NCBI GenBank assembly: GCA_008477525.1
Contig: SPDT01000005.1
Span: 186,001 to 250,000 of the forward strand
DNA from: Hypomyces perniciosus
Taxonomy: Eukaryota; Ascomycota; Sordariomycetes; Hypocreales; Hypocreaceae
Reading direction: 5' to 3'
Length of the DNA stretch: 64,000 nucleotides
The notes below the pieces were generated by a model that worked only from the letters and a program-made list of their open reading frames with translations, was not told where the DNA came from and did not search any database. Shown one piece after another: positions 8,792 to 63,900 of the stretch. The stretch's first letter is position 1; every line of letters begins with the position of its first letter. A program made the position numbers and the translations under genes.

Positions 8792-11164
8792 ATGAGACTT
8801 TTGGCCCGGAATGGCGCTTTCAGGGGCCAGTTGAACCTAAGTAGCTTCCGATATCTATCATCAACGTCTCAGTCATGGCGCCTCGCGGCGTCTGCGAAAA
8901 AAACTCCAACAAAGAATCACAAACCTAAGCTGGCGGCCAAAAAAGAAGTTTCAAATGATGAATCGAAAACGGGTGTCAAGCTGGCCGCTCATTCTCGAGC
9001 AGACTCTGTAAGCTGGCTATTTTTTGGTATTTTTTTCTGCTTGACATGGGTCTGACATTTCATAAACACACAGGTCAGTCAGGGCCATGACCCCAAGACC
9101 AGATTACGGCTTGGCGGTGGTAAGAAGCATACTGGCCGTCATGCAGTCTTTCGTTCTACAGTCCTGCACCGCTTTCAGGTTGCCCTGACGCAGTTGGGGT
9201 CGGCACAGTTTGGTGTCACTCTCGGTGAGGATGAGCTGAATCGGCAAGCCGCGCTCTTCATGGATGCCATAGACGATGCGTTTTCACTAGCAGAAAAGGG
9301 CCTCACGAAACGTGAAAAGAACCCCTTGTTCTGGAACTTGCGAGACGCCTTCATTACGAGAGATATCAAGGGCCTCACGAAAGAAGTTCAGTACTCGTTT
9401 CAGTCCTTCATCGTCCGACAGCGCTTTTCTAAGGAGGTGGAAGAGAGTCAGCAGCGCCTACTGGACTTCAGATTCCCACATGAGTGGTTCCCTGCCACGA
9501 GAATGATGCAGCGGACAATTCACCTTCATGTCGGACCGACAAACTCGGGCAAGACATACAACGCCCTGAAAGCCCTGGAGAACTCGAGATGCGGTGTCTA
9601 TGCAGGGCCTCTTCGACTCTTAGCCACCGAAGTCTACCAGCGTTTCAAGGCGAAGGGTATCCCATGCGCACTCATCACCGGCGAAGAAGTGCGTGTTCCA
9701 GAGGACGCGGATCAATACTTTTCGAGCTGTACGGTGGAGATGATGCCGCTCAATACACGGTTCGATGTTGCTGTCATTGACGAAATCCAAATGATTGCCG
9801 ACTCTGACCGCGGAAATGCATGGACAGCTGCCGTGCTGGGTGTGCAGGCAAAGGAGGTCCATCTTTGCGGAGAGGAGCGAGCTGTCAGTTTGATTCAGGC
9901 CCTGTGTGCCAGCGTTGGCGACAAATGTGTCGTTCATCGTTATGAGCGCCTTAGCCCCCTTCAGACCATGACTCGTTCCATCAATGGCGACTTCAGCAAC
10001 CTGCAAAAAGGAGACGCCATCGTTGCTTTTAGCCGCATGAACCTCCATATGCTGAAGCGCAGTGTAGAGGAGCGCACGGGAAGGCGATGTGCAATCATCT
10101 ATGGTTCCCTACCGCCCGAGGTTCGTGTCCAACAGGCCGCTCTGTTCAATGACCCCAACAACGACTATGACTTCATCGTTGCCAGTGATGCTATTGGCAT
10201 GGGATTGAATCTAGAAATTCGCCGCGTTGTTTTGGAGTCGGTATTCAAATACGACGGCAGCCAAAATCGAATGCTCACATATCCCGAAATCAAACAGATT
10301 GGCGGGCGAGCGGGTCGATACAGGTCAGCCCAAAACCCCGGAGGCGAATCGGAAGAGGACAAGATCGGCCTTGTCACCACAATGGATCAGGCTGATCTGC
10401 GAAATGTACAGCGGGCATTCCAGAAGAAAGTGCCGGATATTGAAGCAGCCTGTATCCACCCTCCAGCAGGTATCGTCGAGCGGTTTGCCTCATACTTCCC
10501 GCCGGATACGCCATTATCCTTTATTATGATGAGGATAAAAAACGCAGCAACTGTGAGCCCGCTTTATCGTCTTAATCTCGGAGCCGACGCTCAAGGAATA
10601 GCCGATATCATCCAAGACCTCCCCCTTACGATTCACGATCGACTCACATTCTGTTACCTGCCCGTTGCGCTGCGCGCAGACAGAGCCATCGATGTCCTCC
10701 GAGCTCTCGCTCGTGTGGTTGCCACAAACTCGTCGGGCGATCTTCTGGATATCACGGAGATCCCGCTTGAGTTCCTTGACACCGAACTGGATAATTTCCC
10801 GGGTCAAGCGCAGGAATACCTCTCTAAACTGGAATCTCTCCATGTCGCGATCAACCAGTATGTGTGGCTCTCCTACCGATACTCGGGCATGTTCCGAAGC
10901 CAAGCCCTAGCGTTCCACGTGCGATCGCTGGTCGAGGAGAAACTGATTCAAACGCTGGATCGACTCAACTTTAGCGATGAGCAACTGGAGCGGAAGCGGA
11001 AGAGCAAGCGACTCCAGGCGAAGTCGCGCGAAATCAGCAGGGAGGCGATAGGAGAAGGGAGCGCGGAAGATGCACTGATTGATGATGATGAAGTGACGAA
11101 GGAAACCAATGAAAGGATAGCCGAGGTCAGAGACGCAGTTACTGGGTCTACTCCTACTCCGTAG
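8792..11164 (+). CDS. suv3: Mitochondrial ATP-dependent RNA helicase Suv3
   Basis: Exons 8792-9007 and 9074-11164 flank a 66-bp phase-0 intron (GTAAGC...CACAG) and encode 768 aa. The first 40 residues are Arg/Ser-rich without acids, a typical mitochondrial presequence. Helicase motifs include GPTNSGKT (226-233, Walker A), DEIQ (308-311, motif II, characteristic of the Suv3 family) and QIGGRAGR (480-487, motif VI), followed by the Suv3 C-terminal domain. Suv3 unwinds RNA and, in yeast, works with the exonuclease Dss1 in the mitochondrial degradosome that turns over introns and aberrant transcripts. The C-terminal tail after about residue 715 is Lys/Arg/Glu-rich and probably disordered. The start is the first in-frame ATG. 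Confidence 0.94.
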
Positions 11165-11506
11165 GGAGCTGGGTGAATTGTAGTCAATTCACTGCACTGT
11201 ACGGTGCGGGCTGTTATTGTCATGTATCAAAAGGGCTTCCAGGTTTGTATGAATAGGAGATATATGGACGGTTTTGGTTGGCATTGCATTGCATGGAGTT
11301 GCCGGAGGATAGGGATGATAAGGTAAGGTATGATATGATTAAGGTATGGCTGAGTGGATACAGACATAATGATGATCGCTATTCTGCACGCACATGGAAG
11401 CATACATACCTGGAGGTAGTACGGAGTACTGGTATTTGATGTTGACACCCATGTAATAAACAATAGCAAGAGCAAGAGAAGACCAATGGCATCAGGACTC
11501 GGGAAT

Positions 11507-11525
11507 TACTCCGTACTCCGTACTC
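11507..11525. repeat. Tandem 7-bp array of the nonamer motif
   Basis: Units of TACTCCG follow each other without a gap, two full and a third partial copy ending in TACTCCGGG. The 7-bp period equals the size of the insertion seen in the carboxypeptidase pseudogene. Confidence 0.8.
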
Positions 11526-11898
11526 CGGGTCTGTGAAATCACCGATCCAATGCCGTGCACAGATCACCAATCGGCATTGTGCATCCCCTGAGGCTCCGCC
11601 TAATGGTAATGGTAATGGGGATGGGGCTCTTCACTGGGCTGCTGCTCTTCTGAAGCTTCAGCCTCAAAGACCCCTCCACAGGCCTTTCAGGGGCCTTTCT
11701 TCAGGGCCTTCAGATCCACTGTTAATAGCACCCGCTTCTCCATATTAGGTCCTAGAATGATGACCTCCACTAGTGAATCAATGATACGCGGCTGCCTCAT
11801 TGTTGCCTTGCGTCTCTGCTTCGGAAACTTAAGGTTAGCCAACCGGTATGGCCAAAGGATTGCCTGGGTTAAGAGCGACGTCAGCTTAGCCTTTGGTT

Positions 11899-27329: not shown

Positions 27330-27890
27330 AATGGCTATCGTCTGGCGTTTGCCAACAAGGCCATACGGCAGATGGCTGTACACGGAGCAGAATCTGCCTT
27401 CGAGGTTGGGTGATGTGTTGCTGATCGAAGTCGCACTAGCTAGCGGTCGTAGTGGCGAAGACGGGGACAATTGTTGTTCCCTTTCAACGTTGAGACTGGA
27501 GGATATACTCGTAGTCCAGGAAGACGGTGTTGTTGTATGTGCAGAGTACGGAGTGGTAGTAGTACTGCGAGAGAGTATGTACTCGTAGAGATAATGAATG
27601 TGGAGGAATGGGAGAAAAGGAAAAGTGAGACGTGGATCAAGAGATGGAGGGGGTCAGGCCCGTCTAAAGATATCCGGGGGAGGGGACAGACAAATACTCG
27701 CTCTGCGATGGGCAGCAGGTGAATGTCGACCAGGTATTATGTGAAGAAAAGTGAGCAGCCAGCCAGCAAGCAAACAGCAACAACCACAACTAGACGGATG
27801 GTCCAGGACGGATGGAGACTTGCATCTCCACTGGCGTGGTAGGGGTGTACTCGGCATGTACAAGGCCTGGGTAGCGCAACTGACGAGGAT

Positions 27891-27910
27891 CCTACCCTAC
27901 CCTACCCTGG
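27891..27910. repeat. 5-bp tandem repeat CCTAC
   Basis: Three perfect CCTAC units and a partial fourth occur head to tail in the gene-free region. Confidence 0.8.
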
Positions 27911-29280
27911 CATGGGTGTGGATGGACGCCTTGGCCCGCCCGTGTGTCCGTCGTCGTCGTCCGGCTGGCCGTCGTACGAAGGCCGTCGGCGTCAGGAAGT
28001 ATCGTCCTAGCTCCTGGAACTGCTTCTCGCGTCAGATCAACCCATTGATCAAGCCCATAATAGTACGTACATACATACATACACCTACTCCTCCATACTC
28101 CGTATGTCATGCTAATCAACGCTAGCAGTGGCAATACGACTCGGCAGTCTGTGCCAGAATGCACATGTTGACTGACTGCGTGAGACATGAAACACGGGAT
28201 ATACGTACATGGCCGCTGCAGAACGCTGTCGAATGTCGCAGCCCGACGCCTCACCTCGCAGCGACGGCGATTCATCCCTTCTCGTCCCGTTTGGCTGCTG
28301 CTGCTGGATGGCTGCGAATTGTGGTCCTGACTCCTTGCGGCTGCAAGGCTCCCGGGAGAAAACAGACCCTAGACGCATGGACGCCACTCAACCAGGGCCT
28401 GATCTGGTGGCTGTCAGGGGTCGGATCCAGGGGGTCTGGCCTGTGACAACGCTTAGAGCAAGACATTGGCAGCATTTGGAAGAAGAAGAGGACCCCCGTC
28501 AGCAGAGGTGAGGCACCACGACAGGCGCCAGGGGGCCGTCAACCGGGAGAGTCGCAGCATTATTACTCGTATCGGAGACACAGAAAGAAAGAAGAAGAAA
28601 AACGCCACACTATACAGCGTAATGTACTCGAAGACACACAAGACAGACGCCCCATCAATGCAATGGGGGTGTGTGTGTCGATGATTCGATCGATTGAGTG
28701 AATGGAGAGGTGTGTCGGTGAAGATGGGGAATTTCGGAGAAAATGATGTCTGTCTGTGGGTTTTGGCGGGACGTCGCCTTCCTTCCTCAGGGCCCTCCTC
28801 TGCTCGCTCACCTGCCCACCAAACGACAGAGCAGGGGGGCACTAAAGTCCGGGCTTTCCAGCAGGGGCGTGAGAGCCTGAAGGCCCCCGAGAGCCCCGGC
28901 TCCAGCACTACTCGCAACTTCGTAAAAAATCGCCCTGTTGGAACAGCACGGCTTACTGGTACGGTCGTTATGTGTATGTATAAGCAATGGAGCGGTGATT
29001 ACAGATGGTAGCACTATGTATATGCGAAATTGAGCAACATCCAACAGATGATACTATCGTATAGCATATTTATTTCTACGAAGTACTAATCCGTAGTAGT
29101 AGCAGAGATTCATTTCTTCACGATAAATGGTGCTTTGTCGCGTATTCGTTAGGTTGTTCGCGTATGTATGCACTAAAGCATCACGCGCGCCCAACCCCTG
29201 ATTGTCATGCAGTGTGAATCAGTGTGAATTCCGACATGCATACTATTCCGTACATGCATGTGCTCTATACTAGTACTAGG

Positions 29281-29304
29281 TACTGCGTACTGCGTACTGC
29301 GTAG
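29281..29304. repeat. 7-bp tandem repeat TACTGCG
   Basis: Three perfect TACTGCG units followed by TAG share the 7-bp period and TAC/GTA ends of the dispersed nonamer, with one base changed in the core. Confidence 0.8.
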
Positions 29305-30011
29305 AAAGGAATCACATTTCCCCGAGAAGGATAATATGGAGTGCATATACGGAGTACATATACGGAGCACGGAGTGCAGCTGTTGGTAACCTGCCAGCCG
29401 TCATAATCACTAAAATACACACATAATAATAATAATCCTACCCAGCTGTTTGTTTTGCCGTTGGTGGCTTTTCCACATCTGCCTCCTCCCGCCCAACTGT
29501 ACGGCTCCTATCCACCTGAACGCCGACTCCTCTCCTAGGACTCGAAGCAGTAGTATTTTCTCCCAACAGTAGGAATACAGCATACGAGCTGCGCTAAACC
29601 ATAGTATGGCCATGGCTGATTGCATCAATCCCACATGGCCCCCATTTCTGGGTCGGGCAATACTCGTAGTAATATACCTGAGCCAGCTAAAATAGCAAGG
29701 CTGCTACTGTATCGGTGGACCGACTCTGGCGATGTGGCTCAATTCATCGATCGCCGGTTTGGCTCGTCGCTCTCGTTCATCTCGAATCATCGCGATGGGT
29801 GTCGGGGGCATTTCCGATGATTTTATGAGCATCTTGTTTCCGTTCGGTAAATACCCAGCAGGGCATGGATAAATAAAAATTAAGTCATCGGCGAGTCAGC
29901 CCAACTAACAGGGGAGGGAGTGTGAACAAAGGCCCATGTCCCTGCGTTTTTTTGAGAACAAGGGGCCTTGTTTGTTGATGAAGGCTTTCACACGGCGATA
30001 ATACCAGGACG

Positions 30012-30027
30012 GACGGAGTACTCCGTC
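30012..30027. other. 16-bp perfect palindrome on the nonamer core
   Basis: GACGGAGTACTCCGTC reads the same on both strands. It is equivalent to two motif halves fused at GTAC. Confidence 0.85.
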
Positions 30028-33000
30028 GTCGTCACGGAGAACTTACATAGTACTACTGATAGTACTACAAACAAAGCCCTTGTCCTCCGTGCTCCGTAGA
30101 TGATACCCGGACGGAGGCAGAAACAAACCTCTCTCTGAGTACGGAGTATTACAAGCACATACTCGTACCCATTGGTGTGGTTTGCGAGTGGCTGTTGTTG
30201 CCGGCGCACAGGGCATCTCTCCCTCTCTTCAGTGAGCTCGCTCCATGCAGATGATGTGAAACGGCGCAAAAGCCCCAAAATACTACCCAAGATATGCAGT
30301 GAAAGCGTGTAGAAACGTCCGTTCCCTTCCATCAATGCAACTACTTGGTACACTGGCATGAAACGGCTCTCCCCCTACATACGCATGTACATACGAATAT
30401 GTACTACAAACGCACGCGAGGCATGGCAGTGGAGAAGAGACTCCAATTGACCGTTTGTTTGACAAAGCAATGACTTGGGCATGCAACATGCAATCGGGCA
30501 TCAGGCTGGGCCTTGTTTCGCTGACGCCGGCGACGATGAGTAAACAAACTCCGATCTGGAATACTATCCATGTACGTAACTACGAGTAGAGGAGGGTGAT
30601 CTTGCTTGGCATTTGAAGTGTCATGTCATATAACACAAATTGAAATTGAAGGATGCTATCACATCGCACATGAGCTGAGAGAGAAGGTGGAAATTTAACA
30701 TGAAAATGCCAAAACGAACAACAACGACAAGAGGGCTTTTCTGTCGTCTCAATCATGCACGATTTTGCTTTTTTAATTCAACCTTTTTTTCCCTCTCTCA
30801 CTCAACCTTGTCTCATCTCCATATTCCACGTGGGACAGCATGTCCGGATCGATAGCACTCGCGTCCGCGTGTCTGTCGGTTGGACGCCTCTTTTTTTTTC
30901 GTGGCTCTGCGGCGCTGTGTCTGTTTGAGGCTGGGTCGGCGATGTGGACAAGCAGTAATATGCCGTAATATGTATGCACTCTGAAGGATTTGTGAAGATG
31001 GTGCAGTTGGAGCGCACAGACTGGTTGTTGGATGTTGCGTTTGCATCTGATAACCAGCCATGCCATGCCATGGATACACATGACTCTCTCGTTGAGTGCA
31101 TACTCTTAGTAGTATTCCGTATTCATACGAAGTGCGGAGTAATACTACACCGCCAGAAAGACGATGACGGAAGTTGTCATCATCCTCAACAAAGACTGTC
31201 TACCAGCCTCCTGGTCCATGGAGAGATGGAGAGATGGGTCTGTGGGATGCTGATGCTAATGCAGGCCGTACGGAGTACATGCAGCAAGGTTTATCGTGAC
31301 GACCAACGGACTATTCCAACTGAAGAAGGTATAAAGTCCGAACACTTCCTACTCCTACTATTACTACAGAATTATCATAGCAGCTATCAAATTAGAAAGA
31401 AAAGTCTTTCTTGATTAAAGTGATGGTTTGCCATGCTAGAGATCTAGTTCGTTCCGATCGCCAATATCGGGGGAAAGGGATTGAGATCTCAGTGGCTTTG
31501 TGGCTTGTGCCATCCGTGAGCCGATCTTGATGGGAGTGAGGGCTTATTTTCGCCCGTGCTTTTCTCACCAACCTCTCTCTCTCCTCTGTGAAAGGATATA
31601 TCTCGGGATTTCGGGTACGAGGATAAGTAGTATTTGTTCCCTCTCTCTTTCAACATCATTGGTACTCCGTACTATCAATCACCGTCATTATTAGTAGCAA
31701 CGCCGCCCCCGACGGCCTCTCGGACAGAATCTGTCAGAGCGTCTACGAGTACGCCCAGCTTCATCGGGAGGCAGATGCCGAGATCTTCCCAAGGGCCAGT
31801 TAGCAGGGCGCGGGGTTGTCAATTCTCTTCCGTCTGCTGTCAATCCTACCATCGGGGGCCCGAAATCTTACGGGAATCAGAGGACCAGGAAAAGCGACAA
31901 TTCCAAATGGGGGCTAATGCTGGTGGACCTCTTCGAAATGAGATGCCCCAACCGGAGGACCAGGGAGGTGTGAAAGAAGTGATGATTATGTCAAGGTAAA
32001 AAAGTCTCCTCCCAGATGGACGGATGTTGTACATATCCATACCATCTACCATTGGTTACTGGTGCAAGGATATTTGACAAGGCTTTGACAAGACCAGGCC
32101 CCTTGATCCAAGAGGCCAGGATTAAGAGGATATTAGTGGGCCGTAAGTCATCGGGAAAAAGCAATGATTGATGTGCCAGAGCAAAGCAAAAAAGGGCGCC
32201 TAGCTTAATGATGTAATCAAAGATTTGCAATTCATGGGAGGGACTCGTTGCGTTGCCTCAGTGCAGTGTTTTTTGTTTGTTTGTTGCTTTCCAAAACAAC
32301 ATCACTCAGCCAGCCACATCCTCTGCTGACTACCCGGGACACTTACGAGTGCTCCAAAAGCCTTGTACAACCATAAACATGATATATGATGATGTTGTTC
32401 CTTGGGTATCCAGGGCCCAAATTCAGCTTCAGGTGGTTAGTATAGTGCTAAGACGGTAGACGTCTACTTCGTACTCTCCATCAGATGGTGGTTAATTACG
32501 AGTACGCCCTACCTGTATTGTATGTACTCCGTATACTCGTATTACATACAGAATGCCATTCATATCCACGATCGGAATCGCATCGCGAAAATTATCGGCA
32601 ATGCAACCAGGGCACCTGGTAGGATTAGGCACTAAATTAATTGAATCAGAATTCATAAAAAAAAATCCCCGGTCTCAGTCAGTACTACTACTACTACTCC
32701 GTACTCGTCCCTTTTACCCTTTACCCCGGAAAAGCAAAACCAGGCTTGCATGAATGCTCCGTATTGTGTGCAATCAAGATCGAGATGAAAGCCTGCGCGC
32801 CAAAATGCACCTCATGATTTGCAGAAAAAAATACGAGTACTAACACACAAACTGCTGAGAATCAGCCCATCACCGCCCACACTTGGACATGGTGAGGATG
32901 GCGTGAACGTGTTTCGGAAATTGCCATCGACATCGAATCTACTTACTCGTACTCTATTGACCGGCTACGTAGCACCAGGAGGTTAATGCTAATCGCGGTA

Positions 33001-33672
33001 AGGCTATCATCACATCTTTACTGCTCGTAGTTTAGGCCATACGTGGATAGGTAGGATAGAACTACTCCGTACGCCCGTACTTTGTAATACTAGTAGTAGC
33101 TTCAGCTCAAATCTTTTCAATCCGTTGACGTTTTAAGCCTCCCCGTCAGAGGGGGAATAGCGCGAGCGTTGATGATAATGGGCAAGCCAGCCGCCTATCA
33201 ACACCTGAACGTGGCGTCGTGGCTCTCTTCTAGCATAAATGCCAACTTGGTGATGTCAGGTCGACTAGTAAACAGTAGTACTACTAGCAGTAGTATTGTA
33301 TTATAGTACGGAGTATGTAGTATTAGTATGAGATGGCTCCATAGCCAACGACGTACGCTATGTTGGGTTCGCCGATGCTCTCATGACTAACGACGACATC
33401 TAACCTGTTGCAGTATTGCTGCGATTTTCACCACCGCAGTTCCTCGGTAGATAGATCTCTATCATTTTCACACTGCGATTCAGCTAGTCAAGGGCAAAGT
33501 GACCGATCGTAGTGCACTTGTTAGCAAGGGTCCAGGGGATGCGTTCATTCCCCCGTAACGATGCAACCTATCAGATTGTCGAGACCTCCATTCCTCACGA
33601 CACTAAATTTAATCCCGATAAACTATGGAAAACTAGTGAAGGCAAACACGAGATTGTGTAATGAATGGTGAG

Positions 33673-33687
33673 TACGGAGTACGGAGT
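33673..33687. repeat. Tandem TACGGAG pair
   Basis: Two head-to-tail 7-bp units (TACGGAG) are followed by T. Two more nonamers lie within 80 bp (33735, 33748). Confidence 0.8.
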
Positions 33688-34409
33688 CATAATATTATGG
33701 AGTAGCACTTTGTAAGACATAATACTACTGGTATTACGGAGTAGTAGTACGGAGTAGTAATGAAGAAACAGTTCTTTCGACTGACTCTTCAAGGACTGAG
33801 GCTGAGGAACTGCGGGAGAGCCCGAGGCGTTTGAAACCGGTCAACATATCAACGTGAAACCTGCATGTGCTATCACTTTTGAAGATTTGGACATAATTAC
33901 TCTCTCTTGATTGCTCTACAAGGGGCAGAGAGCCTCAAACATCCTTAATCCCAATGAGCCGGTTTGGCAAGATACGCCACGCTCCACTCCGATCTCCAAT
34001 GTCTGACTCTTAGTAAAAAATGCTTATGTATTTACTCCGTATTACGCGGCTATTGGGCTTTGTTTGCGTTTACGGAGTGTGCATGCGTCCATTATGTTTG
34101 AGACCTGCTGAGACAGGCAGGCCGGGTAAACGAGCCCGAGACTCTTGTTGTGAGGTACATCCCGGTACCCTCATGTGCGCATCGTTTTTGCCTGCATGTC
34201 TCGTACCCTAAAGGTCTCCAAACGGTGATGCGTCAACGCGTCTGATGACCCTGTCTCACTTTGCAGCCAGACAGCAGAGAGCCTCATGAGGGGGGGAAAC
34301 GGAAAACTGACTTCTCACAAACGCCGCTGGCCTCGGGGCGTTTATTTGCTTTCCCTCTGTAATTATTGATGAAACAAGCCCGACATTAGTATTGGACAGC
34401 ATACGAGAG

Positions 34410-36463
34410 ATGCCTTCTGCTGGTGTGCTGCTGCTGCTCAGCAGTCTTGCGCGACTTGCGGCGGCTCAGTTCCGCCGAGGCCCGAAGGCGTGACAGTGCT
34501 AAAATCCAAATTCCACGAGAATGTCACCATCTCGTTCAAAGAGGTCTGGTGCTGTCGATCGAGATTTTCGCCATTGATTGCAGGCTGACGAAGTGATTTA
34601 CCGTAGCCCGGCATTTGCGAGACGACGCCGGGCGTCAAGTCTTACGCGGGACATATCCATCTGCCTCCAGGCCTCCTAGAAGATGCAGATGGCGAGCCTC
34701 AGCACTACCCCCTCAATACGTAGGCGGAGAACCCCATTGCTCCTGTGATTTAATGAGTGGCTCACGTCTTCACTAGATTCTTCTGGTTCTTTGAGGCCCG
34801 CAAAGATCCTGCCAATGCTCCTCTTGCCATCTGGCTCAATGGAGGGCCCGGCTCCTCGTCTATGCTGGGCCTTCTCACTGAGAACGGCCCGTGTTTCGTC
34901 AATGAGGACTCGAAATCCACCTTCTTGAATCCGTGGAGTTGGAATAATGAGGTTAATATGCTGTACATTGATGAGCCGAATCAGGTTGGCTTCTCATACG
35001 ACATCCCAACCAACTGTTCGGTCAACCTCGCAGGAGGGAGCGTGGATCTTAAGTCGGCAGACTTCTCAAAGAAGCTACCCGAGCTCAACCTGAATTCGCT
35101 TGCTGGAACGTTCAGCAGCCAGAAGCAATCCCATACAACCAACACCACCGCTCAGGCTGCCCATGCTTTGTGGCATTTTGCTCAGACTTGATTCTTTGAG
35201 TTCCCCCATTATAAGCCCAAGGATGATCGCATCAGCCTCTGGGCTGAGAGCTACGGTGGCCATTATGGTCCCGGTTTCATGCGTTTCTTCAAGCAGCAGA
35301 ATGAGAAGATTGCGAATGGCACGATTGATGATGAGCATGCCCATTACCTTCACTTGGATACGCTGGGCATTGTCAATGGATATCTCGATGCCGTCCTACA
35401 AGCGGAGGCTTATATCGAGTTTCCATACAGGAATGTAAGTCAGAGGCCCTAAATACTAGTACCACTACTGGCATGGATATGATGACTACTATGTCTATTC
35501 TTACTGCTGACAGACTTCTGCAGACCTATGGCATCCAAGTCTTCAATCAGTCCATATACGATGAGCTGATGCACAACTTCACAAAGTCCAATGGATGCAG
35601 GGAGCAATTAACCAGGTGCCAGCAAAGCCTCGGTGTCTTTGACGTGGCTGCCGTCAACTCTCAAAAAGCCAATGTCGCTGACGTCTGCGATATTGAAGAA
35701 TCCTGCGACGATATGGCCACCAAGCTTTACTTCACCCTCAACCGTGGCTGGTTCGACATCGGCCACACCCTTCAGGACCCCTTCCCACCTCCCCACATTC
35801 ACGGCTACCTGGCCGAAGAAAGCGTCCTCCGCGCCCTCGGCTCACCCGTCAATTTCACCGCAGGTTCCAGTGCTGTGCAGCTCAACTTCGCCAGCGCAAA
35901 CGATGAGATCCACGGGGGCTTCCTCGACGCCGTGGGATACCTCCTTGACAGCGGCATCAAAGTGCACATGATGTACTCCGTACGGCGACCGGGACTACGC
36001 CTGTAACTGGATCGGCGGTGAGAAAGCCAGCTTGGCGGTGCCATACTCACATGCTAAAGACTTTGCACACGCGGGCTATGCGCCGCTACTCACGGAGAAG
36101 GGCGTCGGGGGGATGACGCGCCAGTTTGGGAATTACAGCTTCTCAAGGGTGTTTCAGGCGGGACACATGATCCCTTCGTATCAGCCCGAAGCGGCGTATG
36201 AGATTTTCATGCGCGCCATGTTTAATCGCGATATTGCTACAGGGCTGGAGCCTGTTACGGATGAGCTGGCAACGGACGGGCCGAGCGATACTTGGCACGT
36301 GAAGGATGAGCCGCCGGAGATGCCTTTGCCCAAGTGCTACATCCTGGCTCCTGAATCGTGTGTGCCTGATGTATGGGAGAAGGTTGTGGCGGGAGCTGTG
36401 AAGGTCAAGGATTGGTTTGTTGTTTCGGATGACGAGGATGAGCTGGTTTCGGAGGAGCTATAA
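34410..36463 (+). pseudogene. Broken secreted serine carboxypeptidase (family S10)
   Basis: Exon-like blocks 34410-34543, 34607-34719, 34777-35434 and 35524-36463 retain a signal peptide (MPSAGVLLLLSSLARLAAAQ) and all S10 hallmarks: [10 protein letters not shown], the nucleophile context ESYGGHYGP, the Asp context DRDYACNW in a shifted frame, and QAGHMIPSY with the catalytic His. Three lesions break it. A one-base loss near 34471 shifts frame right after the signal peptide. A TGA at 35189-35191 stands where the family has Trp. A 7-bp insertion at about 35975-35983 shifts frame just before the catalytic Asp and creates the nonamer TACTCCGTA. Outside the lesions the sequence is little decayed, so inactivation looks recent. 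Intact relatives are vacuolar or secreted peptidases removing C-terminal residues. Confidence 0.9.
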
Positions 36464-56396: not shown

Positions 56397-57881
56397 TATA
56401 TATGATGCCCTTTTGAGTATGCGGCACGAAGTCGAAAACGTGACCCAAGACGGGGAGAAACCGAAGCAACGACCATGACGGCACAGAAGGGGGAGAGACG
56501 AGGATTTGTAGAGGAGACGAAGGATTGAGCAGGGATCTAATCTGATTGATAAACTGATTGATAAAGTCGGCTGAAAGGAGGTGTTGTGGATTATACTAGC
56601 AGACTGGGCCAATGATTGAAACTATAGAGATGGGCTCGTTCAGCCGCTTCCACGCTTTGCACGGTTTTAACGCAAATACGAGCATTCTAGCATCATGAAT
56701 TTTGATCTATCGATGTCATATGCCGCGTGCCAAGGCGATCTAGACAGGGGATGCGGAAACATGAGTTCAATAACCGACGGAAGTTGACCGATGATCGGAA
56801 TGACACAAGTACGAGTACTAATATCTACGGAGTACATACAATCGAAATGAGTATTGCAAATAATCAAGCGGGTGACAAAAAAGGAGGGACCGCAAAATAT
56901 ACATATCTCATCAGACAGAGCATTATGAGCTTTACTATTACGTCGCATTCAAATATAAATACCAGCTGTATAGAAGCTATCTATCGTAATGATAGTACGG
57001 AGTACTAATCTACTGCAACCAGGGTAATATAGAGCAATCGGAGCTAATAATAAAAGTCAGAGAGCCGGATGTTTTGCAAACCCCCCCAGTGTTCGGCAAA
57101 AAGTCCTTCAGACGGCATGAACCCTTGGTCCCTTCGCCTGGATTGTGGTGTTTAGCCATGGATCCTACAGGATTCTCTTTTTGAACCTTTTATCCTGTTT
57201 CTAGCTGCTAGCGCCCGGTCGGTCCCGATGTAATGGTCGCTGCTCCGTACATACTCGTACATGTTCTTTAATCTGGCTGGATATTAAAGATCCTGGACTT
57301 GAGTTTATCGTAAGTCTTCGCATTTAAATTACATACGGTCTCTTACTTACCAATCGAATCGTCCACACAGTCAGTAAACACCCCTTGATTGCCCATAATC
57401 CAGTACTTCAGTCTGCTCAATAATATGTGGTCCTACTTATGGCCAGAGACTCGAGCCCGGTATCCGTTTTCCGAACAGGTGGGCACGGTTCCACTAATAT
57501 GGTCAAACTCCACACATTACGGCTTCTGGATCCACGTGTTTTGTATCCGAGACATTTCCAGACGAGGCAAAAGGGTCTTTGAGATGCGCTTCGATTCGCA
57601 CCTGGCCGAAAGCCTTACATTACATATCTCAGGTTCATGTAGGGTGTAGGCAATCATACATTTTATATTCAGATAAAGGTCCTACTGATGTCACCAACAA
57701 GGGACTCAATGATGGCTTTCCAACTTGTGTAGCTTTTGAAAAGGCAATTGATATGTATTTACTAACTAGATATAAAATCTTGTAGTAGCCCAATTGGTCG
57801 ACAGCTCAGCTTTACAGGGAGGAGTAGATCCTGTCGCTTCCGTGATCTACTACTGATGACATCCCATTCCTAAGGTAGGTC
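56397..57881. other. 1.5-kb intergenic region, no supported gene
   Basis: Nonamers lie at 56826 and 56996, and a GCTCCGTA variant near 57242. A/T-rich. An 86-codon open frame at 57389-57649 shows no family features. Confidence 0.55.
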
Positions 57882-60951: not shown

Positions 60952-63900
60952 TCAATCAGTCTTGCCTATACCAAGTAGGAGCTTGACAATAGCCTCATGA
61001 CCCTTTTTAGCAGCATAGAATAGCGGTATACGTCCATCGAAATCCTCCCTGTCGACGTTAACCTTGCCTGTAGCAAGCAGCAGCTTAACAATAGTTCCAT
61101 GCCCGCTCTCGGCGGCGTAGGATAGTGGTGTCCGTCCATCGCAATCCTTCCTGTTGATATTAACCTTGCCTGTATCAAGCAGTAGCTTAACAATAGCCTC
61201 GTGCCCGCTCCTAGAGGCGTATGATAGTGGTGTTCGACTATTCCTATCCTCCGCATTGATATTAATCTTTCCAGCGGCAGACAGTAACTCAACCATAGTC
61301 TTATGCCCATTTTCAACAGCATAAGAAAACGGCGTGCGCCCCGCTTCATCCACTGGATCTGGACTATGCCCACGTCGAAGGAGTGTTTTTGCCGTCTCGC
61401 TTAATCCAAAGTATGCTGCCAAATGTAGTCTTGTCATTTTGGCGCTGTCGTACCTCCAGCTGAACCACGACCACTTGAAAGTTACGACCAGCATTTGAAC
61501 CGACGCCTCGACATTGGCTTCTCGCTCAAGAAAGGCTATGATGGCTGGATTCGATGTCATATCTTTGCGGGCATGATGACCCCAGTTTGTTGCAGCGTAG
61601 TCGTAGAGCGGATTTGACTGTAGACGTTTCTTCCCTTCATCCACGCTTTTACAAATCCCGGCCTCAAAGGAGCTGAATGAGAGATATGTAACGCAAGCTG
61701 TTGTGATCTCGGTCTCTGCATCTGGGAACCATGTCTGCTGTGTTCGCCCAAAGTATTCCTGCGCGGTGTAGTGGACCAACCGGATATGCTGCTTTCTTCG
61801 TCAACTGTTACCAATCCAGCACACACAGAGACCATGGTCCCAGTGTCTGGAATATCACCATGATCGAGATAACGTTTTCCCGTCTTGATTGCCAGGGCGT
61901 GCTGGAGTTCTACGGTAGTAAGCCGTCTTTTCGCGCAGACGATCCACGACAGGACCTGAATTGCAAGTTTCTTTAACCCTGACGTCTGTCCGTTGATTCT
62001 GTTCATGACTTGGTCGTATGCGTAAGCTAGTACTTTGGCTTTTCGGTCTTCGCCTGATATTTGATCTTGTTTCCGGAAGTCATCCAATGTGCTTCGGATA
62101 TCATTTTTCGTTACTTTATCAGTAAGCAAACCCAGATAAATTTGTGCCAAGAGGAACCTATGGATGGTAAATATGCTGATTCTCCCTGTAGGCTGAGAAC
62201 TTACATTCCATCAACGGCTCCTGATATCACAGTCTTAATCTCTTCCTGCAGCTGTTGATCCTGCTGAACAAAAGCTTGTAACAGCTTCAGATGATCTGAA
62301 ATGTATCTTTCTACATCGTCGGCACGAGCGCGAATTTCCAGTGATACACAAATTTTAAAGTTATCCATAATCTCCGGAAGGGGTCTCGAGGTCGCAAAGA
62401 TACTTGCTTCGTATTTTGTTTGAAGTTTGAAGAGCTCCGAGAGGAACCGGCTCCGACAGCCATCGTCTTCTTGGCACTCGTCGAGGGCATCAATGATGAT
62501 GAATACCCTTGAATACAAAGCTGTGACAGAATAAAGAACTTCTAAAGCTTCATCAAACGATGGCCGGGTTTTTCTATTCTTGTGCCTCCCGTAGAGGACT
62601 TTAACAGTCTCTGGTAGGGGAGACGGGCGTGGAATTAGCTGTTTTAGCACGCTCATTAGCAAATCCTCAATTGTCTGCTCGGTTTGTCGCTTGAAGTTGC
62701 AGTAGATGTATGCGATTCCAGCACTTGGATCGTCACGGAATTTGGATTCGAGGTGATGAACCACGGTTGATGTTACGATTGTCTTGCCTGCCCCGGGAAT
62801 GCCTGGACAGAACAACGTCTGCTTGCGTGTATCCAACCAACCTTGGAACTCTATAGACTCAAGGAACCACCTGTTAGTTCCTACTTGGCGTTTCCTAAAG
62901 TAGTCGCTTTGCTGTGGGCCATATTCGACTGGTGTGAGCCAGTTAAGGATCTCTTGGTCATCCTTCCTATCCAGCGTTGCCTTGACATGTGTCACATTGG
63001 CCCCAGTCGTGGAGACGGTGTCAAGAACTATATTTGAATTAGGAACTTGCTGTGCACTTAATGAAAGCCACTAACCCTGAGCCAGTATATCCTTCACCGG
63101 ACGCTCCCCGTCAACATCACTCGTCTGCACATATTGCAGGAGTTCCTTTGCAAATGCCGCTGCTACAGCCGCTGCATGTTCTTGCCAATCTTTGTTCTTA
63201 TGAGAGTCCGCATAGTCGCAATGCCTCGGATGACGATGCAAGGGAAGTTATTCATCAGTCCCGCCGCTTCCATTTCGACACAGCGAACATCACCACCCAG
63301 TCCCTTATTGAGCCTATCTCGGAAGACGGCGTCTTTAACGACCTGGTTTCCTGATGCAATCAGACCGTAATGGACACGCATATCCTTGGGACGTCTCTTG
63401 ACAATTTTGGTCTCATCGCAGAATCGGCAACTCTCTTCTTCTTCGTCTTCTTCGTCAACATCATAATCTGCACTCTGGACGACATGGCTATAGTCTGCTC
63501 TGAATAAGATATCACTGAGGGAATCGGATCTGAGTATTTATTTGCCAATCGTGGCCATTTCACCTTCAACTCGTCCAGATACTCTGGTATCCTAGACCCG
63601 TTCAGATCATGCTCCGTCTCCAACTTCGTTAGAGCCGTGAGCAGCGACGTTGGGGGGCTGTTCAATGCCCCTGTTCGCTCAAAGTGACCGCCTTCGTTCG
63701 CTTTGCCAAAGTCCCATTGAACCACACCAGGGAACTGGCTAGTCGGAGTGCTGACCACGACGTCACCGAGTCTGACCTTGGGAGGAATGCCGCCGCCAAT
63801 GCCAACCATAAGACCGATCTTGATGAACGGAAAGGTGCTGACCATGCGGGTGGCGACAGTCGCTGCTGAGCTTGTTCCGATCTCGCCTTTTGGCAGGCAG

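Follow-up and report, generated by a model that had tools for sequence, protein, structure and literature searches.

The window, by which we mean the whole stretch of 64,000 nucleotides analysed here, positions 186001-250000 of contig C22, contains the remains of a gene for an S10 serine carboxypeptidase (Table 1). When a homologue from Trichoderma virens FT-333 (P0001) is aligned to it by tblastn, residues 20-300 fall on positions 34472-35434, residues 301-454 on 35524-35985, and residues 451-610 on 35981-36460, with 66-79% identity still legible along the gene; no counterpart of the first 19 residues was located at the locus by this alignment. Two of the three pieces match the Pfam profile PF00450 above its cut-off, while the middle piece scores 20.6 against a cut-off of 21.9 bits. 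The last piece also matches the PDB entries 1cpy/1wpx; the middle piece has no PDB match. Among the matches listed, the nearest named proteins are those of Trichoderma, with up to 76% identity. Near the 5' end, two stretches with stops coincide with gaps of the homologue, in the same frame; we read them as putative introns. From residue 20 onward, the alignment contains two lesions that break the open reading frame: an in-frame TGA, and seven extra bases that change the frame.

Table 1. Features of the window discussed in the text, with positions counted from its first letter.
Feature	Position	Strand	Remarks
S10 serine carboxypeptidase pseudogene	34472..36460	+	tblastn with T. virens FT-333 homologue P0001, residues 20-610, in three stretches
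In-frame TGA, second lesion of the pseudogene	35189..35191	+	tblastn
Probable intron, separating aligned stretches 1 and 2	35435..35523	+	gap in tblastn alignment; starts GTAAG, ends GCAG
11-mer GTACTCCGTAC	35973..35983	+	includes nonamer TACTCCGTA at 35974-35982
Seven extra bases, as placed in the earlier note	35977..35983	+	frame change between conserved Tyr and Gly-Asp
11-mer copy	11419..11429	-	
Three tandem TACTCCG units	11507..11527	+	period-7 array; 11-mer inside at 11513-11523
Tandem array of the rare form GTACTGC	29280..29303	+	period 7, 3.4 copies
11-mer copy	31268..31278	-	
11-mer copy	31662..31672	+	
Period-7 array	33670-33687		
11-mer copy	33672..33682	-	
11-mer copy	56995..57005	-	

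The final frame change of the pseudogene falls at a copy of the motif studied here, the 11-mer GTACTCCGTAC. An earlier note on this DNA had put the nonamer within it at 35975..35983, correctly as to its presence and one base off as to its position. The alignment with P0001 runs in one frame up to MMY and in another from YGDRDYACNW, so that both frames include the Tyr. The shared GTAC allows five equivalent placements of the seven bases, from 35973-35979 to the one given in Table 1. Of the 2662 homologues found, the best 120 have Tyr (119) or His (1) immediately ahead of GD, and none of the 120 has an extra residue between this Tyr or His and GD. (Our first pattern caught 105 of the 120, of which 104 have Tyr-GD and one has His; the 15 that it missed all have Tyr-GD.) The net length difference at the junction, relative to the homologues, is +7. 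Together, the frame change and the homologue junctions bear out what the earlier note had claimed, namely that seven extra bases split the reading MMY-GDRDYACNW, and that the motif arose here when 7 bp were inserted into a site already present, and not by point mutation; nor do these 120 homologues lack the GDRDYACNW reading. By comparison with the homologues, then, we show that a 7-bp unit (TACTCCG in one register) was inserted between the conserved Tyr and Gly codons. The insertion leaves TAC/GTAC at both sides, which creates GTACTCCGTAC.

Two simpler histories of this copy were considered. A plain point-mutation origin is rejected by the frame change, with its net +7 at Tyr-GD, and a 4-bp insertion into a Tyr-Ser-Gly ancestor finds no support among the 120 homologues listed. 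When random 7-bp insertions into the gene are simulated, the nonamer is made in 8 of 200,000 cases; we conclude that the whole word almost certainly went in as one unit. The event was probably recent, judging from a gene that aligns from residue 20 to its end with only one other lesion. The nearest nonamers to the site lie 1.9-2.9 kb away. Outside the organism's own genome, no DNA orthologue of the gene was found in viral or prokaryote contigs; within it, a carboxypeptidase Y-type S10 paralogue has Ala at the junction (YAGD); it is not the orthologue.

We also scanned for changes of coding frame at five motif forms, using coding potential, in 234.8 kb of DNA: the window, the pieces L041-L050, and the pieces L001-L030, which entered the scan because they contain the 11-mer. 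Among the 128 of 271 sites that could be scored on both sides, the carboxypeptidase site ranks first, with a score of 6.7 and a change of frame. A site in a HET-domain gene (5.1) and one in a TAF4-like gene (4.2) are in frame and within the chance range of the reversed controls, and two TACTCGTA sites have a change of frame with scores of 1.4 and 0.8. Earlier settings (272 sites) missed the carboxypeptidase site, the scan's own positive control, and were discarded.

The window has seven copies of the 11-mer, where 100 shuffles give a mean of 0.02, and the assembly (44.0 Mb in 23 contigs) has 2392 (1203+1189), against 12+8 for the reversed control. The earlier note's remark that the same form is found dozens of times between genes holds for the nonamer, with 27 copies in the window, and fails for GTAC-TCC-GTAC, with 7. 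The forms of the motif were counted in an unselected sample of 164 kb, consisting of the window and C3:3.0-3.1 Mb, which was chosen without regard to the motif. There we find 57 copies of TACTCCGTA (reversed control 2), 28 of TACTTCGTA (2), and 50 of TACTCGTA (9), along with five of TACTGCGTA and two of TACTACGTA. In other words, the middle base is C in 57, T in 28, and absent in 50 copies, as opposed to G in 5 and A in 2. The pattern TACT-N(0/1)-CGTA accounts for 50 and 92 occurrences, respectively, compared to 4 to 12 for each spacer of 2-7 bases. The motif family is thus TACT-(C, T or nothing)-CGTA, whose units are therefore 7 or 6 bp long. The tandem form TACTCCGTACTCCGTA occurs once in the 164 kb, and single units are the rule.

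In the DNA surveyed, TACTCCGTA is the most over-represented complex nonamer. Since 15 of the 57 nonamers are 11-mers, the genome count of 11-mers extrapolates to roughly 9,000 nonamers genome-wide. The 24 words that differ from TACTCCGTA by one base, outside the variable middle, together occur 57 times, versus 38 for their reversed controls, beside 57 intact copies; so few mutated neighbours indicate that the copies are young, copied or kept. An AT-rich block of 100 kb with 28.5% GC (L031-L040, C3:1.0-1.1 Mb) has no TACTCCGTA and one TACTCGTA. In the window and L041-L050, TA-CTAG-TA occurs 24 times (both strands) and TA-CTAC-TA 47 times, as against 0 and 2 when the inner four bases are reversed; intergenic DNA therefore seems generally rich in TACT/AGTA words.

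The flanks of the motif bear on the site at which it may arise. In the 164 kb, a G precedes TACTCCGTA in 32 of 57 cases (56%), a C follows it in 27 (47%), and both are present in 15; for TA sites outside ORFs the corresponding background is 27.8%, 27.8% and 7.9%. The other two forms have G before and C after in 16 and 13 of 28 (TACTTCGTA), and in 23 and 20 of 50 (TACTCGTA). One base further out, AG precedes the three forms in 16/57, 8/28 and 10/50 cases, and CT follows in 14/57, 5/28 and 7/50 (in the order C, T, absent), versus a background of 9.4% for each; CG precedes TACTCCGTA in 4/57 (background 6.2%) and the other two forms in 3/28 and 7/50. Given these counts, the empty site would be a TA leaning towards AG-TA-CT, with GTAC preferred. 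The earlier note had suggested looking for GTAC enrichment at empty sites: G before and C after are indeed preferred about 2-fold, while TA is the minimum and GTAC is not required. Its proposal that GTAC is duplicated around a TCC filler is weakened as a general account, as only 15 of the 57 nonamers have both the G and the C. A staggered cut at GTAC is disfavoured because fill-in would always yield GTAC twice, and a free filler is disfavoured because nearly every copy has C, T or no base in the middle. The GTAC staggered-cut model is thus not supported in its strict form.

With the three motif forms taken together and genes defined by ORF-based models, the motif has a density of 0.10 per kb in coding DNA (8 copies in 77.6 kb), 1.17 in tandem intergenic DNA (60 copies), 1.50 in convergent (23) and 2.30 in divergent intergenic DNA (43). 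A copy of TACTCCGTA at 11155-11163 overlaps the stop codon (TAG, 11162-11164) of a Suv3 gene (window 9056-11164), whose closest named proteins among the matches listed are from Trichoderma, at up to 83% identity. We rejected this stop as evidence on the motif's origin: the tails of its homologues (39 of the 120 listed, compared by eye) do not align.

A second and weaker case comes from a repeat of 66-67 bp at L017:1765-1831 (C3), for which an own-genome search finds a single further copy, at C5:3580306-3580371. Where the C3 copy has GACTA-GACG, GACTA-CTCGTA-GACG stands in the C5 copy; the C3 copy has an extra TACTAGA, and both agree outside the middle. One parse of this pair is a 6-bp form (TACTCG) inserted at TA, with only TA shared. 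We regard the pair as a suggestive second insertion only, because the aligner prefers a cheaper parse with smaller gaps. No second copies were found in the own genome for L023, L007, or the window segments 31400-34300 and 27400-31400, and the alignments of own-genome repeats at 74-84% identity contain no motif indel. Two other repeats were encountered. A MITE-like element at L044:7432-7676 (C3:3037432-3037676) has perfect inverted ends of 58 bp (CCCAACCACGGGCAC...) and is present in three full copies at 99-100% identity, which are probably too young to be informative on motif gain; its middle 87-88 bases also stand alone at three places (94-97%). At 60961-61298 of the window, a 102-bp tandem repeat of about three copies may be an ankyrin-type coding repeat.

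How, then, might the word have come to be inserted? The explanation we favour, tentatively and at somewhat less than an even chance, joins the carboxypeptidase insertion to other copies, seen as 7- or 6-bp units placed at TA, and to templated copying during break repair. We infer that many other TACT(C/T/-)CGTA copies arose as such units inserted at TA, preferably at G-TA-C, with break repair or template switching from existing copies as the most likely agent. A broken end with ...(G)TA(C) as its last bases would anneal to an existing motif copy elsewhere and copy one unit from it; the extended end would then re-anneal to its partner, the unit's last letters being the same as its first. On this view the motif would be a filler, able to spread through its two matching ends, and its copies may later serve host binding factors such as SomA. 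The identity of the filler is fixed, which argues that it was copied or left behind rather than drawn at random. Copying from existing copies fits the fixed filler, ends that equal the target, and single units, and would also keep the copies alike. The ends shared by unit and target are TA by construction, with G-TA-C enriched. As in templated insertion by microhomology end joining (MMEJ), GTAC stands at both junctions, and the 2392 11-mers provide candidate templates.

Counting against the generality of insertion, a single case is clear and the second is ambiguous. The motif's own ends also explain the flanks incompletely: CG before TACTCCGTA, which the end of a unit would favour, has the low count given above. 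The higher density in divergent intergenic DNA gives a hint of function or of open chromatin, and we count it against copying. A theta-type polymerase, the enzyme that normally makes templated insertions, was not seen in a loose first look, a profile search of the genome for family A polymerases (DNA_pol_A); the single match is presumably the mitochondrial enzyme, and a theta-type enzyme is disfavoured because there is only this one. In the accessible part of a review of repair in filamentous pathogens (PMC9779921), theta is named as the defining factor for animals and for plants, with insertions rare in yeast; what is accessible of a study of Magnaporthe break repair (PMC9684475) has no bearing on the word. 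A bolder version, which we hold to be doubtful, is that TACT(C/T)CG is a self-propagating word of 6 to 7 bp whose ends equal its target, which would be copied into TA/GTAC breaks with no transposase of its own, would have persisted from Eurotiomycetes to Hypocreales, and would since have been used by host factors and giant transposons.

The copies could instead be scars of a DNA transposon or MITE that targets TA, in which the TA is duplicated, and the terminal CT and CG remain, with 0-1 base, after the element's exit. Scars would account for the fixed filler, the ends that equal the target and the single units, provided that there is an element whose ends are CT...CG. At a minimum, the duplicated target is TA, which flanks the extra bases on both sides in the carboxypeptidase gene, fixed ends TACT and CGTA joined with 0 or 1 extra base match the observed spacer spectrum, and the genome has many TA-type transposases (42 matches to DDE_3 at E<=0.001 and 26 to DDE_1), of which some have open frames. 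An imperfect inverted pair (L048, 7967-7989 and 8496-8518, 23 nt, 78% complementary) is bounded by TACGAAGTA and TACTTCGTA; the pair (L048:7967-8518, 552 bases) could be chance or the relic of an element. The ends that can be read speak otherwise: a DDE_1 element (L055) has perfect repeats starting AGTCAGACC after TA, not CT/CG, and two DDE_3 copies cease matching at ...ACTG-TA on the right side, which we take as the end. Moreover, the extrapolated number of nonamers would be a very large number of scars, and the window's inverted pairs that hold the motif (I2, I6 and I7) consist largely of the word itself. On balance, we think scars unlikely. The DDE_1 element, of pogo/Fot1 type (L055:67-1889, C22), has inverted ends of 28 bp that are perfect, so it is perhaps young, and several of the genome's DDE_1 matches lack stops. 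At L053:1773-1856 (C5), the right side of a DDE_3 copy faces the apparent left end of a second copy, with 30 bases between the arms.

Alternatively, the copies may be selected binding sites, for SomA or another factor, in which case any mutation makes copies, selection keeps them, and the pseudogene case is accidental. ChIP-seq for SomA in A. fumigatus yields GTACTCCGTAC as the top motif, found in 119 of 476 peaks and backed by gel shifts in the accessible part of PMC7667024, and GTACTCCGTAC is likewise the SomA motif in that of PMC10900910. A. fumigatus has an excess of the word, which is reportedly conserved in other Eurotiomycetes (PMC12153272, accessible text); in our own counts, the scarcity of mutated neighbours and the peak of density in divergent intergenic DNA point the same way. 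Against this, selection for binding does not place a frameshifting copy in a coding exon, and promoterless convergent DNA is, under the ORF-based models, as dense in the motif as tandem DNA. In addition, the accessible part of PMC8344781 has TACGGAGTA among the peak motifs of a different factor, UvCGBP1 of Ustilaginoidea virens (also Hypocreales), as would be expected of any very common intergenic word. We rate selection as rather unlikely. Replication slippage of a heptamer microsatellite could draw on the period-7 arrays of the window (Table 1). At the carboxypeptidase site it is rejected, because the inserted TCC has no adjoining source: the empty Tyr-Gly junction offers no TCC to duplicate. 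Tandem copies are rare in general, and three pairs spaced 7 or 14 bases apart occur among about 100 genome 11-mer places listed, which leaves slippage very improbable. Finally, the carboxypeptidase insertion is seen in a single genome and might be an assembly or sequencing artefact; the assembly is in long contigs, and a 7-bp error that happens to spell the most over-represented complex nonamer is so improbable that we give this hardly any credence.

The word poses a puzzle already in print, given its excess in A. fumigatus, its role as a Starship target and its rank as the top SomA motif. A case with a known empty state makes the origin of the copies answerable by alignments of strains. If the copies are inserted, then ChIP motif discovery in these fungi needs a background that includes the word, and the process would be a new source of small frameshifts and of binding sites.

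Several known systems resemble what we describe. The known fillers of microhomology end joining are one-off copies of nearby DNA; they share with our case short fillers bounded by short homologies, and differ in that here one word recurs thousands of times. A heptamer minisatellite likewise has a 7-base unit and shared ends, whereas the units here are dispersed and mostly single. Excision footprints of the Tc1/mariner type consist of a few bases between two TAs, as here, yet the ends that we read (DDE_1, and the right side of DDE_3) lack CT(N)CG. Our literature search, with most subscription papers outside its reach, found no report of the word's birth by insertion among the titles, opening lines of abstracts and text passages that it covered. 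In the accessible literature, the word lies within primers for Coccidioides, A. fumigatus, Fusarium, A. oryzae and A. flavus, and, in PMC5063351 as far as accessible, inside one A. fumigatus SINE. At the carboxypeptidase site GTACTCCGTAC is, by sequence match, identical to the published motif of SomA (Flo8-like); the copy here, unlike those sites, lies in the exon of a dead gene, and binding is silent on origin. The accessible part of PMC12153272 places CTACGGAGTA above the 99.99th k-mer percentile in Af293 and describes it as the direct repeat of the Tardis Starship, leaving its nature open. That target is our nonamer on the other strand, with a similar genome-wide excess, and the target word TACGGAGTA is present in the window; there, however, a giant transposon targets the word, whereas here it is created by a 7-bp insertion, in Hypocreales, and has the sister forms TACTTCGTA and TACTCGTA. 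The motif itself is thus already published, as Starship target and SomA site.
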